The notes below the pieces were generated by a model. The model saw only the letters and a program-made list of their open reading frames with translations. It had not been told where the DNA came from and searched no databases. The position numbers and the translations under genes are program-made. Of a stretch of DNA of 40,304 bases, positions 7,817 through 13,580 are shown piece by piece. Numbering within the stretch: the stretch's first letter is position 1; the number at the start of each line of letters is the position of its first letter. Source of the DNA: Deltaproteobacteria bacterium (GTDB lineage: Bacteria; Desulfobacterota; Desulfomonilia; UBA1062). The stretch is from NCBI GenBank assembly GCA_022703355.1, contig JAKLDU010000010.1, positions 1 to 40,304 of the forward strand, given 5' to 3'.

Positions 7817-9748
7817 TCAGATCTCGATCTGCGCGCCGATCTCCACCACCCGGTTGGGCTGTATCCCGAAGGAGGCCATGGGGGTCTGGGCGTTGCGGGA
7901 CATGAAGGCGAAGAACGCCTTGCGCCAGGCCGTCATGCGGGAGCTCCCGGAGGTGAGGAGCGTCTCGCGGCCCAGGAAGTAGGTCGTGACCTGCGGGTCG
8001 GTCACGAGGCCCTGGCGGGAAACGAGCTCCATGACCTTGGGCACGTTGGGCTGCTCCATGTACCCGAACCGGGCTACGAGGCGGTAGAACCCCTGGCCAA
8101 GGTCATCTATGGTCACCCTGCGCCCGTCGGGCACGACGGGGACGTCGAGGGTGGACAGGGTGAAGAGGACCACCTTCGCATGGAGGGTGTCGTTGTGCTT
8201 CAGGTGGTGGAGGAGCGCCGGGGGGGTCCCCTCGGGCGAGACCGTGAGGAAGACGGCCGCTCCGCGCACCCGGTGGACAGGGTGCAGCTTCAGGTCCTCG
8301 AGGAACAGGTCGATGGGGAAGCGGCTCTCCCGGAGCTTCTGCGCCAGCAGGGACCGGCCGTCCTTCCAGGTGGTCATGGCGATCATGACAAACGCCGCCA
8401 CGGCCAGCGGGAACCACCCGCCCTGGAAAAACTTCAGCAGGTTGGCCCCGAAGTAGGCGAGATCGAAGGAGAGGAACACGCCCACCAGGGGGATGACCTT
8501 CCACAGGGGCCAGTTCCATACCCTCATGAGCACGAAGCCGTAGATGATCGAGGTGAGCGTCATGGTGGCGGTCACGGCGATGCCGTAGGCGCCCGCGAGT
8601 CCGCTCGAGCTTCGAAATGCAAGGACCACCCCGATGCAGCACACCATCAGCGTGTGGTTCACCAGGGGGATGTAGATCTGCCCCCTGGTTTCCCGTGAGG
8701 TGTGGAAGACGCGCAGGCGCGGGCAGTACCCCATCTGGATCGCCTGCTGGGTGAGCGAGAAGGCCCCGGTGATGAGCGCCTGGGAGGCGATCACCGTGGC
8801 CGCGGTGGAGAGCGCCACCATGGGGTAGAGCAGGGCCCGGGGCACGAGGCCGTAGAAGGGGTTGAAGGCCTTGTCCGGATGGGCCAGGAGCAGGGCCCCC
8901 TGGCCGAGGTAGTTCAGGAGCAGCGCGGGGAACACGAAGGAGAACCACGACACCCGGATGGCCCCCCGCCCGAAATGGCCCAGGTCAGCGTAGAGCGCCT
9001 CGCACCCGGTGATGCAGAGCACCACCGACCCGAGGATGATGATCCCGTGGCGGCTGTGGACGGAAAAGAAGGTGAAGATATGGCCGGGGTTCAGGGCCAG
9101 GAAGATCTCCGGGTTCCGGAGGGACTCCACGAGCCCGAGCCCCGCGATGGTGAGAAACCACACGCACATGACCGGGCCGAAGACCCTCCCCACCCCGCGG
9201 GTCCCCCACCGCTGGACGAAGAACAGGGTCAGGAGGATGGCGCAGGTGAGGGGCACCACCAGGGGCGTCAGCGCCTTCGTGGCCACCTCGAGCCCCTCCA
9301 CCGCGGACAGGACCGAGATGGCGGGCGTGATGATGCCGTCGCCGTAGATGAGCGCCGCGCCGAAGATGGCGGCCGTGACCACGAAGGCGTACGCCCGGGA
9401 GGACCGGGTGCCGCTGCTCGAGCGAGCCAGGGCGAGGAGCGCGAACACGCCGCCCTCGCCCCGGTTGTCGGCCCGGAGCAGGAAGAGGACGTACTTGACG
9501 CACACCACGACCACCAGGGTCCAGAAGACGAGCGAGGTGACCCCGAACACGTTGACCTTTTCCACCGGGATGGCATGGATGCCGGAGAAGCATTCCTTGA
9601 CGGCATACAGGGGACTGGTGCCGATGTCCCCGAAGACGACCCCCAGGGCGCCGACGATCAGGGCGAGCTCTTTTTCGTGTGTGCCGGGCGACGGCTGGCC
9701 CGGCTCCGGACCGGACGGATCCGGGCCGGCGAAAGCGGAATCCTGCAT
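7817..9748 (-). CDS. kup: Kup-family low-affinity potassium uptake protein
   Basis: Potassium:proton symporter of the KUP/HAK/KT family in the cytoplasmic membrane, 643 aa (family usually about 620-660). The N-terminal signature GALGVVFGDIGTSPLYAVKE is present, followed by about 12 hydrophobic helices including IYGDGIITPAISVLSAVEGL. A cytoplasmic C-terminal domain ends in VEIGAQIEI. ATG 9748 has AAGGAGGG at good spacing. It stands alone, behind a c-di-AMP riboswitch and a sigma-70 promoter. Since c-di-AMP rises with potassium in known systems and this riboswitch class is an off switch, high potassium should shut the gene down (inference from the class). Confidence 0.96.
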   Translation of the reverse strand: MQDSAFAGPDPSGPEPGQPSPGTHEKELALIVGALGVVFGDIGTSPLYAVKECFSGIHAIPVEKVNVFGVTSLVFWTLVVVVCVKYVLFLLRADNRGEGGVFALLALARSSSGTRSSRAYAFVVTAAIFGAALIYGDGIITPAISVLSAVEGLEVATKALTPLVVPLTCAILLTLFFVQRWGTRGVGRVFGPVMCVWFLTIAGLGLVESLRNPEIFLALNPGHIFTFFSVHSRHGIIILGSVVLCITGCEALYADLGHFGRGAIRVSWFSFVFPALLLNYLGQGALLLAHPDKAFNPFYGLVPRALLYPMVALSTAATVIASQALITGAFSLTQQAIQMGYCPRLRVFHTSRETRGQIYIPLVNHTLMVCCIGVVLAFRSSSGLAGAYGIAVTATMTLTSIIYGFVLMRVWNWPLWKVIPLVGVFLSFDLAYFGANLLKFFQGGWFPLAVAAFVMIAMTTWKDGRSLLAQKLRESRFPIDLFLEDLKLHPVHRVRGAAVFLTVSPEGTPPALLHHLKHNDTLHAKVVLFTLSTLDVPVVPDGRRVTIDDLGQGFYRLVARFGYMEQPNVPKVMELVSRQGLVTDPQVTTYFLGRETLLTSGSSRMTAWRKAFFAFMSRNAQTPMASFGIQPNRVVEIGAQIEI

Positions 9749-9799
9749 GGAAAGACCCTCCTTACCTTTTCAGAGGCCAGGCCTCCGAAAGCCGGAAGG

Positions 9800-9930
9800 T
9801 CTCACCTCTTCGACGCCTACGAGGTTAGCTGACGGGCTCGGGCCGAAGAGATTGCCCTACGCTTTTTTATGCGATACGCCCCGTTTCCTGGGTCCCCCGC
9901 TCCCTGCCGTGCAGGGATTGAGCGATGTGA
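9800..9930 (-). ncRNA. ydaO/yuaA-class c-di-AMP riboswitch in the kup leader
   Basis: Reading the minus strand, the leader has the conserved blocks of the ydaO class in order: ATCGCTCAATCCC near the 5' end, GCGGGGGACCCAGG, then GGGCAATCTCTTCGGCCCGA, CCCGTCAGCTAACCTCGTA and GGCGTCGAAGAG. These match the B. subtilis ydaO leader blocks recalled from memory. The 3' part holds ACCTT and AAGGT segments that can pair around a GC-rich stem just before the AAGGAGGG ribosome site. Regulation could therefore act on ribosome access; no T-run terminator is seen. Confidence 0.88.
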
Positions 9931-9935
9931 AATTC

Positions 9936-9964
9936 TTCCTACGCTCCTGATTTTCTTTTGTCAA
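9936..9964 (-). promoter_or_regulatory. Predicted sigma-70 promoter of kup
   Basis: Minus-strand -35 TTGACA (9964-9959) and -10 TAGGAA (9941-9936), 17-nt spacer. The predicted start near 9929 coincides with the 5' end of the riboswitch. Confidence 0.6.
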
Positions 9965-10001
9965 TGATGTCGCGGCAGGCGCCGGGCGCCCTCCCGCTCC
10001 T

Positions 10002-11150
10002 TCAGGAGCACAGTGAGCGGCCGAGCTTTTCCTGCCTGATCCTGGCCACGTTGCCCGCGATCTTCATGAAGGACACGAGGTCGTTGGCGAGGACGGCATA
10101 GTCGTGCCCCATCTCGAGGCCGGCCAGGCCCGTGATGGCGCTCAGGCGCTCCTGGACGTCGCTCGCCGCCTGCCTCAGGTAGAGCGACAGGGACAGGAGC
10201 CCGGGGTGGCCCGCACCCCCCTCGTCGAGCATCCGCGCCCCTTCCCGGGAGAGGAGCTCCAGGGACTCCAGTGCCGCTGCCACCCAGCCGAGGGCCGAGG
10301 CGACGTCCCGGCCCGGGTCCGCCCCCCTTTCCCGGAGGGCGCGGGCGATCATCCCCGCCTGGGCCCTGGCGCCGCCGATGAAGGGGGCCGTCATCATCAC
10401 GTCCTCCACCTGCCGGAAGGGCAGCGCGATGTCTTCGTAGGCGCGGCCCTCCCTGCCGATGACGCCCTCTGCCGGCACCCGGCAGCCGTCGAGGATGATC
10501 CCGCCGTGGGGGCAGGGCCGCAGGAATCCCAGGTCCATGGGGGCGGTCCTCTCCAGGCCCCTTGCTTGCCCGGGCACCAGAAAGGCCGTGTAGCTCTTCC
10601 TGCCCCCCCCCTCGGCCGTTATGGCGAGCACCACGAACAGGGTGGCCATGGGGCCGTTGGTGAGGTAGGCCTTCTCCCCGGAAAGGACAAAGGAGCCCCC
10701 TTCGCGCCGGGCCATCGTGGTGAGCTTCCCGGGGTGGCCCCCCACGCCGGGCTCGGAGATGGCCAGGCAGGGGATCTCCTTCCCCGAGGCGAGAGAAGGC
10801 AGGCAGTCGCCCTTCTGCCCGTCCGTGCCGAAGCCCAGGATCACGAACCGGGAGATGAGGACGTGCATGAGCCACGACATCGCCGTGCCCAGGCTGCGGC
10901 CGTGCTCCACCAGGGCCTGGGCGGCGACCGCCAGGTGCAGCCACCCTCCCCCCGCGCCCCCGCTCGCCCGGGGGACGCCGATCCCGAACAGGGCCTGCTT
11001 CTCCATGGCCTCGTGCAGATCGGGGGGAAAGACGACGAGGTTTTGCAGGTCGCCCCGGGGTGCGACCTCCTCCCGGGCAAACCGGGAAACCATGTCCTTC
11101 AGGGCCTTCAGCTCCGCATCCGAGTTCGTCACGACAGCCTCCCGGGTCAT
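10002..11150 (-). CDS. Divergent acyl-CoA dehydrogenase family protein
   Basis: FAD-linked acyl-CoA dehydrogenase fold, 382 aa, the usual length. Seen: the flavin-binding segment AISEPGVGGHPGKLTTMA and the following VLSGEKAYLTNGP, corresponding to the family's EP-x-GSD and GEK-x-WITN blocks. The C-terminal region is atypical: the usual YGG-x-GY motif and the nearby catalytic glutamate block are replaced by ITGLAGLEMGHDY, so substrate and even activity are uncertain. ATG 11150 has no clear Shine-Dalgarno site; a start at residue 20 (MVSRFAREE) is possible. It lies about 90 bp downstream of the VWA gene and may share its transcript. Confidence 0.8.
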   Translation of the reverse strand: MTREAVVTNSDAELKALKDMVSRFAREEVAPRGDLQNLVVFPPDLHEAMEKQALFGIGVPRASGGAGGGWLHLAVAAQALVEHGRSLGTAMSWLMHVLISRFVILGFGTDGQKGDCLPSLASGKEIPCLAISEPGVGGHPGKLTTMARREGGSFVLSGEKAYLTNGPMATLFVVLAITAEGGGRKSYTAFLVPGQARGLERTAPMDLGFLRPCPHGGIILDGCRVPAEGVIGREGRAYEDIALPFRQVEDVMMTAPFIGGARAQAGMIARALRERGADPGRDVASALGWVAAALESLELLSREGARMLDEGGAGHPGLLSLSLYLRQAASDVQERLSAITGLAGLEMGHDYAVLANDLVSFMKIAGNVARIRQEKLGRSLCS

Positions 11151-11164
11151 TCACGGCAGGAGAA

Positions 11165-11254
11165 GGGTTTCCCCCTGCTCATAGGATAAGCGACACTGCT
11201 GACTTCTTCACTTCGCGCACCGATAGGGGTTCCCCATGCTCACAGGATAAGCTC
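11165..11254. repeat. Imperfect direct repeat copying the 3' end of the VWA gene
   Basis: A 28-bp unit at about 11165-11191 (core CTCATAGGATAAGC) recurs about 62 bp away at about 11227-11253 (core CTCACAGGATAAGC). The second copy covers the stop codon and last codons (ELIL-stop) of the VWA gene; the first is a non-coding copy downstream of it. Confidence 0.6.
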
Positions 11255-12619
11255 TTCCACGAAAGCCACGAGCTGGTTGAGGTTCCGGCACTCCCGGAGC
11301 TCGTGGCAGTGGGCCTTGTAGGCGAACATCTCGGAGTCGCCCGTGTTCCAGGCGCTCTCGGGCTCGGGGTTGAGCCAGATGAGCCTGCGGCACTTCTCCC
11401 GCATCTCCTCGAGGATCCGGTCCTCGGGGTGGAAGTAGTTCGACCGGGCGTCGCCGATGATGATGAGGGTGGTCTTCTTGTTCAGGGTGTCCATGTGGTT
11501 CTTCCTGAACTGGCGAAAGGTCTCGCCGTAGTCGGTCTGGGCGTTGTAGTCGATGTCCATCTCCCTGAGCACCTTCACGATGGCGTGGTTGATCTCCTCC
11601 TCCTCGAGGACCTTCGTCACCTCCACGGGCCTGTTCACGAAGATGAAGGAGTGGACCCGGGTGAAGCACTCCTGGAGGGAGTAGAGGATGTTGAGCATGA
11701 AGCGCGCCGCGGAGAACACCGAGCTGGAGATGTCGCACAGGGTGACGATCTTGCCCCTCTTCGGGGGCTTCTTCCGGAACCGGATGTCGATGGGCACGCC
11801 GTCGTACCTGCCCGCGGCCCGGATCGTCCTCTTCGCGTCGAGCACACCCCGGCTGCTCGAGGCGTAGCGCCTGCTCATGATGTCCTTGAGCTTGCGCACG
11901 AGCCGGTCGATGAGCTCGCGGACCCGCTCGATCTCCTGGGGCGTGAGCGCGGAGAAGGGGCGCTCTCCCAGCTGGCCGAGGTACTGCTCGTGGGTCCTCT
12001 GCTGGACCCCCTCGTTGTGGGGCCTCGGCTCCCGGAGCAGGATGTCGTAGGCCCGGTCCATCTGCTCGCGGAAGCGCCTGCGGAGATTGCCCCGGGTCTC
12101 CTCCCGGTAGTCGAAGGGGTTCTCCTCGATGATCCTATCGATGCGCGACCGGGTGTCGTTGAGCTGGACCATGACCATGAGCCGGGACGCCAGCGGACCC
12201 AGGTTGAACTTCCGGCCCTGCTCCGGGTCGGCCTCCTCCGTCTGGACCCTGCGGATGAGCTCCAGGAAGCCCATGGGGTCGCCCGAGAGGAAGTCGAGGA
12301 TGGCCTCGTGGTTCTCGCTCCCGCGCACCTGCTTCTGGAGCTGCTCGATGAGCTGGTCCATCTTCTGGGGCGTGGCGTCGGTGTCGTCGAGGTCGATGTC
12401 CTGCCTGAGCTCGTGGAAGTAGAGGCGGTAGAGCCGGTCGAACTGGGCCTGCTCGCGCCTGCTCTTGGCGAAGTTCGCCCGCAGGACCGAGCGGAACTCG
12501 TCCTCGTTGAGCATGTTGATGAGGGCGAGCTGCGAGATGCAGTCCACCACCTCCGAGGTGGAAACCCGGTAGCCCGCCGTGCGGCAGCAGGCCACGAACT
12601 TCAGGATGGCGTTGACCAT
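11240..12619 (-). CDS. VWA domain protein, CoxE-like
   Basis: 459 aa. The C-terminal half (from about residue 270) is a von Willebrand factor A domain with the MIDAS motif CDISSS, preceded by the basic IRFRKKPPKRGKIVTL strand typical of CoxE/YehP-type proteins. The rest of the fold, with a TTLIIIGDARSN strand and RRLIWLNPEPESAW, also matches. The N-terminal half is charged and helical with no recognised domain. The gene begins 9 bp after moxR. MoxR/VWA pairs are known to act as ATP-driven chaperones that mature metal enzymes or complexes; the client here is not identified. No signal peptide, so cytoplasmic. Confidence 0.85.
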   Translation of the reverse strand: MVNAILKFVACCRTAGYRVSTSEVVDCISQLALINMLNEDEFRSVLRANFAKSRREQAQFDRLYRLYFHELRQDIDLDDTDATPQKMDQLIEQLQKQVRGSENHEAILDFLSGDPMGFLELIRRVQTEEADPEQGRKFNLGPLASRLMVMVQLNDTRSRIDRIIEENPFDYREETRGNLRRRFREQMDRAYDILLREPRPHNEGVQQRTHEQYLGQLGERPFSALTPQEIERVRELIDRLVRKLKDIMSRRYASSSRGVLDAKRTIRAAGRYDGVPIDIRFRKKPPKRGKIVTLCDISSSVFSAARFMLNILYSLQECFTRVHSFIFVNRPVEVTKVLEEEEINHAIVKVLREMDIDYNAQTDYGETFRQFRKNHMDTLNKKTTLIIIGDARSNYFHPEDRILEEMREKCRRLIWLNPEPESAWNTGDSEMFAYKAHCHELRECRNLNQLVAFVEELIL

Positions 12620-12628
12620 GGGTCGACC

Positions 12629-13537
12629 CTACTTAAGGACGCTCGCCGCGTTCGCCTTGACCATCTGGGCGTCAGCCCGGTACTTGCAGATCATGTTCAG
12701 GGTGTCCGCGAGCACCCTGCTGTCGATGCTCTCCACGGACAGCGCCACCAGCGACCTGGCCCAGTCGATGGTCTCGGAGATGCAGGGGTTCTTCTTGAGG
12801 CCGAGCTCCCGGATGGCGCGCACCGCGTCCACGATCCGTGCCGCCAGCGTGTCGCTGATCTCGGGGAGCTTGAGCTTGACGATGCGGAACTCGAGGTCGC
12901 GCTCGGGGTAGTCGATGTAGATGTGGATGCAGCGGCGCTTGAGGGCGTCGCTCATGTCGCGGTAGTTGTTCGAGGTCAGCAGCACGTAGGGGATGACCTT
13001 CGCGGTCTTCGTGCCCAGCTCGGGGATGGTCACCTGGTAGTCGCTCAGGAGCTCCAGGAGGAAGGCCTCGAACTCGGGGTCGGCCTTGTCCACCTCGTCC
13101 ACCAGGAGCACCACCCGCTCTTCGGAGGAAATGGCCTGCAGGAGCGGCCGGGGCTGGATGAAGCGCTCGGAGAAGAAGGCGTCCTCGTGGGAGGCGATCT
13201 TGTCCACCGCGTCCTTGAGGTTATGCGCCCCTGCGATGACGTCGCCGATCTTTTCCTTGACCATCTGGGTGTACAGGAGCTGCTTCGCGTATTCCCACTC
13301 GTAGAGGGCTTTCGACTCGTCGAGCCCCTCGTAGCACTGGAGCCGGATGAGCTGAAGCCCCAGCGCGCGGGAGATGGCCTTCGCCAGCTCGGTCTTGCCC
13401 ACGCCGGCGGGCCCTTCCACCAGGATGGGCTTGTCCGTCACGGAGGCCAGAAACACCACCGTGGCGATCTCCCGGGAGGTCACGTACCCCGCGCCCTCGA
13501 GTTTTTCCTGTACCTCTCTGACATCGTTGAAGCTCAT
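12629..13537 (-). CDS. MoxR-family AAA+ ATPase
   Basis: 302 aa. Walker A GPAGVGKTELAKAI near residue 47, Walker B VVLLVDEVDKAD, sensor 1 VLLTSNN and an arginine-finger region LKRRCIHIYIDYPE identify the MoxR group. The start MSFNDV at 13537 is preferred over 13576 because AAAAGGA sits 8 nt upstream. It pairs with the VWA gene directly downstream, the usual MoxR-CoxE arrangement for chaperone-like assembly of metallo-enzymes. A 9-bp inverted repeat lies in its upstream region. Confidence 0.92.
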   Translation of the reverse strand: MSFNDVREVQEKLEGAGYVTSREIATVVFLASVTDKPILVEGPAGVGKTELAKAISRALGLQLIRLQCYEGLDESKALYEWEYAKQLLYTQMVKEKIGDVIAGAHNLKDAVDKIASHEDAFFSERFIQPRPLLQAISSEERVVLLVDEVDKADPEFEAFLLELLSDYQVTIPELGTKTAKVIPYVLLTSNNYRDMSDALKRRCIHIYIDYPERDLEFRIVKLKLPEISDTLAARIVDAVRAIRELGLKKNPCISETIDWARSLVALSVESIDSRVLADTLNMICKYRADAQMVKANAASVLK

Positions 13538-13580
13538 GGTGAATATCCTTTTCTTTATGAAAGTTGTATCCTTCATCCTA

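Follow-up and report, generated by a model that had tools for sequence, protein, structure and literature searches.

The 40,304-nucleotide stretch analysed here (referred to as the window; contig JAKLDU010000010.1 of an uncultured Deltaproteobacteria bacterium) carries on its minus strand a riboswitch of the ydaO/yuaA class (Rfam family RF00379), whose ligand is cyclic di-adenosine monophosphate (c-di-AMP), in the leader of kup, a potassium uptake gene. Judged from its letters and its relatives, this riboswitch probably heads the kup mRNA and acts as a translational OFF switch; OFF control of kup is suggested by a stem that masks the ribosome site and by the covariation of this stem. The riboswitch is a further example of a known sensor class, members of which bind two c-di-AMP molecules, and its class, ligand and type of target are already known. 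In the kup leader, the ribosome site is probably hidden to stop protein production, and it is this shut-off arrangement that is the least described part so far, the sensor type being ordinary.

The aptamer is matched over its full length (model positions 1-134 of 134) at 9934..9799 of the minus strand, scoring 94.3 bits (gathering score 38) at an E value of 3.8e-21 (cmscan). It is the sole Rfam match of the whole window at gathering thresholds, and rescanning 9300-10300 at E values up to 1 adds only a sub-threshold small RNA family (22 bits against 43). This strong match to the covariance model of the family confirms the preliminary description, made from the letters of the window, which had recognized the conserved ydaO blocks in the kup leader; these blocks are on the minus strand, oriented toward kup, and the aptamer ends 50 nucleotides before the kup ATG, a leader position ahead of a potassium-transport gene. 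In a pairwise alignment with the crystallized RNA, the core elements GGGGGACCCAG and CCCGAGCCCGUCAGCUAACCUCG are identical. The loop/tail complementarity of the window aptamer, in which the hairpin loop and the 3' tail form a pseudoknot of nine pairs, is also present in the crystallized RNA, for which a pseudoknot of 5 or 6 base pairs is mentioned (PMC5393176), and the loop-tail pseudoknot of the class is already established. Directly upstream of the aptamer, TTGACA is followed, after a 17-nucleotide spacer, by TAGGAA, and the letters of this promoter, which had also been pointed out, are present exactly as claimed. The consensus promoter scanner calls no promoter at this site, because TAGGAA is a poor -10 element; TTGAC is found at most 45 nucleotides upstream of 41 of the 68 related aptamers, compared with 17 of 471 control windows.

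The anti-Shine-Dalgarno strand GAGACCUUCC (9803-9794) forms ten pairs with GGAGGGUCUU (9761-9752), which holds the kup ribosome site. The stretch of this masking stem has a folding energy of -31.2 kcal/mol (z score -4.51), equalled by none of 200 shuffles; the stem, previously proposed as a possible one, is real, though it lies just outside 9800-9964, the interval to which it had been assigned. No intrinsic terminator is seen between the aptamer and kup, with 0 terminator-like sites in 9600-10050 (mean of the shuffles, 0.7). This counts against a riboswitch acting on transcription, in which the ligand would favour a Rho-dependent or other early stop and the stem at the ribosome site would be secondary, as does the finding that the segment following the tail has the ribosome site itself as its conserved, covarying partner. 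Classic members of the class are described as working by termination (PMC9960051, PMC5575661), and other leaders of the phylum have clear terminators, composed of a GC hairpin and a T run (for example, L090, L116, L125 and L127), but for the kup leader action on transcription is considered unlikely.

In the proposed translational mechanism, plentiful potassium would cause c-di-AMP to rise and to bind to the aptamer, and in the ligand-bound aptamer the pseudoknot would retain the 3' tail (9812-9804). This would make the tail unavailable for the anti-tail (9777-9772) and leave the anti-Shine-Dalgarno strand free to close on the ribosome site, so that Kup would not be made. Without ligand, the tail would pair with the anti-tail while the RNA emerges, the anti-Shine-Dalgarno strand would be parked on a mimic of the Shine-Dalgarno sequence, CGGAGG (9787-9782), and the ribosome site would be open. 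The predicted OFF state is well supported; the predicted ON state is plausible, being less well supported than the OFF state. The opposite sign, an ON switch in which c-di-AMP binding exposes the ribosome site, is very improbable. In the folds of two leaders (L092 and L114), downstream pairing of the anti-Shine-Dalgarno strand is greater when the tail is held than when it is free, and therefore the sign of the switch is not fixed by thermodynamics alone. However, the known members are described as OFF switches (PMC9960051), c-di-AMP turning potassium import on would oppose the physiology as reported (PMC7288161), and capture of the tail in the pseudoknot removes the anti-tail stem.

The comparative evidence for the OFF switch comes from 35 leaders, out of 68 oriented riboswitches of the phylum, that have a start codon 30-75 nucleotides downstream; 28 of these are left after removal of rows at a similarity of 0.9 or more. 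One leader (L089), whose ribosome site was not recognized, was dropped by hand, and six starts were set by hand (L097, L106, L109, L115, L120 and L140). When partners are swapped among the 28 leaders, a permutation test that compares the fit to a leader's own partner with the fit to that of another leader and that ignores relatedness, the loop and the tail covary with a z score of -6.3, and the anti-Shine-Dalgarno strand and the Shine-Dalgarno segment with a z score of -6.6 (0 of 2000 permutations in each case), whereas six control pairings of segments not expected to pair have z scores of -0.5 to +1.9. When a 10-nucleotide window is moved through the tail, the covarying partner is the aptamer loop for nucleotides 0-13 (z -5.7 to -6.8), the middle segment, where the anti-tail lies, for nucleotides 3-17 (z -2.8 to -3.3) and the ribosome site for nucleotides 12-26 (z -3.9 to -5.1). 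This sliding map shows a hand-over of partners, from the loop to the anti-tail segment and then to the ribosome site. In a neutral MAFFT alignment of the 35 leaders, the paired fraction is 92.1% for the pseudoknot, counted as 8 pairs, of which 4 have changed on both sides, and 78.1% for the counted part of the masking stem, where both sides have changed in 3 of 6 pairs. Covariation over these 14 pairs is 0.325, compared with 0.202 (standard deviation 0.015) after shuffling (0 of 500 shuffles; because relatedness inflates comparisons of this kind, such figures are not probabilities) and with 0.198 for the best slid version.

It is possible, with about equal weight for and against, that the c-di-AMP riboswitches of the phylum share a dedicated translational platform. 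In this platform, the aptamer 3' tail would be the exchanged strand (held by the loop with ligand and by the downstream anti-tail when free), and the adjoining anti-Shine-Dalgarno strand would move between the true ribosome site and the mimic. In a side branch, the tail itself would be the ribosome site, and the ligand pseudoknot could hide this site directly. Such purine-rich tails, coinciding with the ribosome site, are seen in L149 (301-460), directly ahead of a 585-residue permease frame, and in L088, L113, L122, L123, L131 and L137, ahead of short frames (34-196 residues) that precede the next transporter gene.

Several observations weigh against the mechanism as drawn. The pairing between the anti-Shine-Dalgarno strand and the mimic is nearly invariant, with little covariation (z -0.8 to -1.6), and the covariation between the tail and the anti-tail varies with the window that is chosen (z -3.3 to +2.6). 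The energy of pairing between the anti-Shine-Dalgarno strand and the Shine-Dalgarno segment is weaker than -15 kcal/mol in 10 of the 28 leaders and weaker than -8 kcal/mol in 4 (L107, L091, L086 and L087); the family of the window itself supplies three of the latter, all of them kup leaders. The platform of the second riboswitch copy in the same genome does not stand out from shuffled sequences in its folding (z -1.07, 29 of 200). When the 28 leaders are folded at equilibrium, the ribosome site is unpaired with a mean probability of 0.18 if the tail is free and of 0.11 if it is held, an effect too small for equilibrium accessibility to serve as proof of switching, and the window gives 0.17 in both cases. 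With near-zero switching at equilibrium, either kinetics or contributions beyond these pairs must account for the switch; if it works as drawn, it must be largely kinetic. A different ON state, in which the tail pairs with the anti-Shine-Dalgarno strand, is seen in single nascent folds (L001 and L002), yet it was rejected, as this pairing does not covary (z +1.7).

The features of the kup leader are collected in Table 1.

Table 1. Features of the c-di-AMP riboswitch and of kup in the window
Feature	Position	Strand	Evidence
-35 element TTGACA	9959..9964	-	Sequence; TTGAC frequency ahead of related aptamers and in control windows (see text)
-10-like element TAGGAA, 17-nucleotide spacer; predicted transcript start near 9928	9936..9941	-	Sequence; below threshold of consensus scanner
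c-di-AMP riboswitch aptamer RF00379, model positions 1-134	9799..9934	-	cmscan, 94.3 bits, E 3.8e-21
Aptamer hairpin loop AUCUCUUCG, pseudoknot partner of 3' tail	9844..9852	-	Nine pairs with 9812-9804; covariation in relatives
Aptamer 3' tail CGAAGAGGU, common to aptamer pseudoknot and proposed anti-tail stem	9804..9812	-	Covariation of tail windows: with loop, z about -6; for windows a little more 3', with middle segment, z about -3
Anti-Shine-Dalgarno strand GAGACCUUCC, abutting aptamer tail	9794..9803	-	Ten pairs with 9761-9752; covariation with ribosome-site segment, z -6.6, 0/2000 permutations
Shine-Dalgarno mimic CGGAGG, alternative partner of anti-Shine-Dalgarno strand (proposed ON state)	9782..9787	-	Complementary to 9798-9793; kept in many relatives, covariation weak (z -0.8 to -1.6)
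Anti-tail GCCUCU, alternative tail partner (proposed ON state)	9772..9777	-	Complementary to 9809-9804; tail windows 3-13 to 7-17 covary with middle segment at z -2.8 to -3.3
Shine-Dalgarno AGGAGG of kup, 8 nucleotides before ATG	9757..9762	-	Sequence; inside masking stem
kup, potassium uptake protein, 643 residues	7817..9748	-	PF02705, 618 bits; PF22776, 165 bits; TIGR00794, 574.7 bits (cut-off 539.6)

The draft genome, which is 80.27% complete, comprises 2.23 Mb in 242 contigs. It has a second full-length RF00379 copy (87.5 bits), ahead of a second kup paralogue whose protein is about 72% identical to the Kup of the window over the matched part. It also has one diadenylate cyclase domain (PF02457, 122.8 bits), for which the best named model is CdaA (TIGR00159, 177 bits), just under the cut-off of 188.8 because the cyclase gene runs into a contig end. 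The genome is thus predicted to encode a CdaA-type cyclase, and, as judged from the presence of this gene, the host would be able to make c-di-AMP. This is in agreement with the earlier proposal that c-di-AMP governs potassium in this organism and that a cyclase of the DisA or CdaA type should be present. The search for cyclase and phosphodiesterase genes that had been suggested along with this proposal finds the former, whereas the phosphodiesterase is only a candidate: there are four DHHA1 proteins, and for one DHH/DHHA1 protein the best match is NrnA, with 88.5 bits, far below the cut-off of 350. The Gram-negative nature of the host, likewise proposed before, agrees with the gene content, an outer membrane being supported by the presence of an Omp85 gene. 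The kup locus of a genome of the same phylum (G080, locus L119) has 91-92% DNA identity to three kup loci, L004, L005 (named Humidesulfovibrio) and L006 (named Desulfovibrionales), and this likeness places the genome among relatives of the Desulfovibrionales.

Of 395 genomes sampled from the phylum, at least 52 have the RF00379 class (a lower bound, because the phylum-wide search scored 8 first-look candidates per genome), as do 6 of the 24 genomes of the window's family and 2 of the 8 genomes of its genus. The surprise at a Gram-negative host that the preliminary description implied is therefore not supported, since the class is common in this phylum and an occurrence in Leptospira is on record (PMC3493377). 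The nine kup genes of the family are present in 6 of the 24 genomes, and the leaders of seven of them have the aptamer, both exceptions being the tandem pair of one genome (G012); the presence of the riboswitch in the family tracks the presence of kup. The remaining riboswitch of the family (G021) is ahead of a KimA-like permease, labelled by Pfam as an amino acid permease. The cyclase domain is detected in 20 of the 24 genomes; in one genome (G023) the riboswitch is present and the cyclase is not detected, which counts against a strict pairing of riboswitch and cyclase, although this genome is 91% complete.

These data also bear on the idea that the aptamer has become a relic, insensitive to its ligand, with a ribosome site that is always partly masked. 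The incompleteness of the draft genome and the patchy distribution within the genus would fit a relic, but the patchiness tracks the presence of kup, the match is high-scoring and of full length with a conserved core, two copies precede two kup genes with the cyclase retained, and the pseudoknot covaries. A relic is considered extremely improbable, and a functional OFF switch is preferred.

The leaders of the two G012 kup genes (L158 and L152, on G012:C48) were searched for degenerate aptamers, with zero Rfam matches at E values up to 5; this tandem pair of the same family, having no recognizable riboswitch, is a useful natural contrast. The tandem kup genes of G007 (L085 and L092; G007:C98:29053-31408) have one c-di-AMP riboswitch each, and L006 (1-2757) likewise has two, about 2.6 kb apart. 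Among named kup loci, the covariance model finds the aptamer in 3 of 18 tested (L004, L005 and L006), and a motif scan of the 80 loci from which these 18 were drawn, which recovers 29 of 34 known positives, flags only the same three.

The genes that follow the 68 riboswitches of the phylum are kup in 32 cases and, in 21 cases, KimA-like or more distant permeases; the name KimA is tentative here and does not come from a named model. Other targets, according to Pfam, are KdpA (L104), TrkA (L133), lytic transglycosylases (L110 and L112) and lysine 2,3-aminomutase (L094). The transglycosylases, to which L124 is added by resemblance to L110, are cell-wall targets in a Gram-negative phylum. In L094 (545-2050), a 101.5-bit aptamer precedes the aminomutase (LAM_C and Radical_SAM), with a terminator-like hairpin in between; the product of lysine 2,3-aminomutase is beta-lysine, an osmolyte. 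A diverged variant of the aptamer (61-64 bits), with a near-identical long leader, is seen in L144, L145 and L146 (G248, G119 and G417), ahead of a gene for a secreted protein, by eye a putative cell-wall protein (3D/RlpA-like). The 51-bit aptamer of L148 (2001-2147), which is without the GGGGGACC block and has no long same-strand frame close downstream, is perhaps a decayed copy. Elsewhere in the window, a CoxE-type VWA protein is encoded beside an AAA ATPase, in a MoxR-like arrangement (11240-13576, minus strand), upstream of an acyl-CoA dehydrogenase-like gene, which precedes the kup leader.

With the sensor class, the ligand and the kind of target being known, the gain lies in the platform and in the close association with kup in the window's family. 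The analysis would place Kup potassium uptake in Desulfovibrionales-related bacteria under c-di-AMP, and it provides a directly testable, comparatively supported model for translational action of the class. Deltaproteobacterial c-di-AMP cyclases are already in print (PMC5575661, PMC7288161). The literature search found no report of a translational c-di-AMP platform in this phylum, an earlier mention in Nelson 2013 or Jones 2014 being possible. The ydaO/yuaA riboswitch of Bacillus subtilis kimA and ktrAB shares with the kup leader the aptamer family, the type of loop-tail pseudoknot, a potassium-import target and the expected OFF logic. This classic platform is a transcription terminator, whereas here there is no terminator, the ribosome site is masked and the target is Kup. 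The riboswitch of the Bacillus thuringiensis kdpFABC operon (PMC6488665) is of the same class and also belongs to a potassium transporter, but, going by the title of that report, its control is transcriptional, and it concerns a Gram-positive host and Kdp rather than Kup. The ydaO-yuaA element of Leptospira licerasiae is an earlier Gram-negative occurrence of the family, its role being described there as yet to be established (PMC3493377). The nlpC riboswitch of Corynebacterium glutamicum is of the same class, and for it translational action was inferred from reporters, the first such demonstration for the class according to its authors' account of their 2023 data; they suggest that a CUCC element alternates between two partners, an upstream GGAG and the ribosome site (PMC9960051). 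This is a similar CUCC/GGAG idea, but the nlpC riboswitch, as reported, is actinobacterial, has a cell-wall peptidase as its target and is a single case without comparative support (PMC9960051), whereas the anti-Shine-Dalgarno strand of the window is longer, abuts the aptamer tail and covaries with its partner over 28 leaders.
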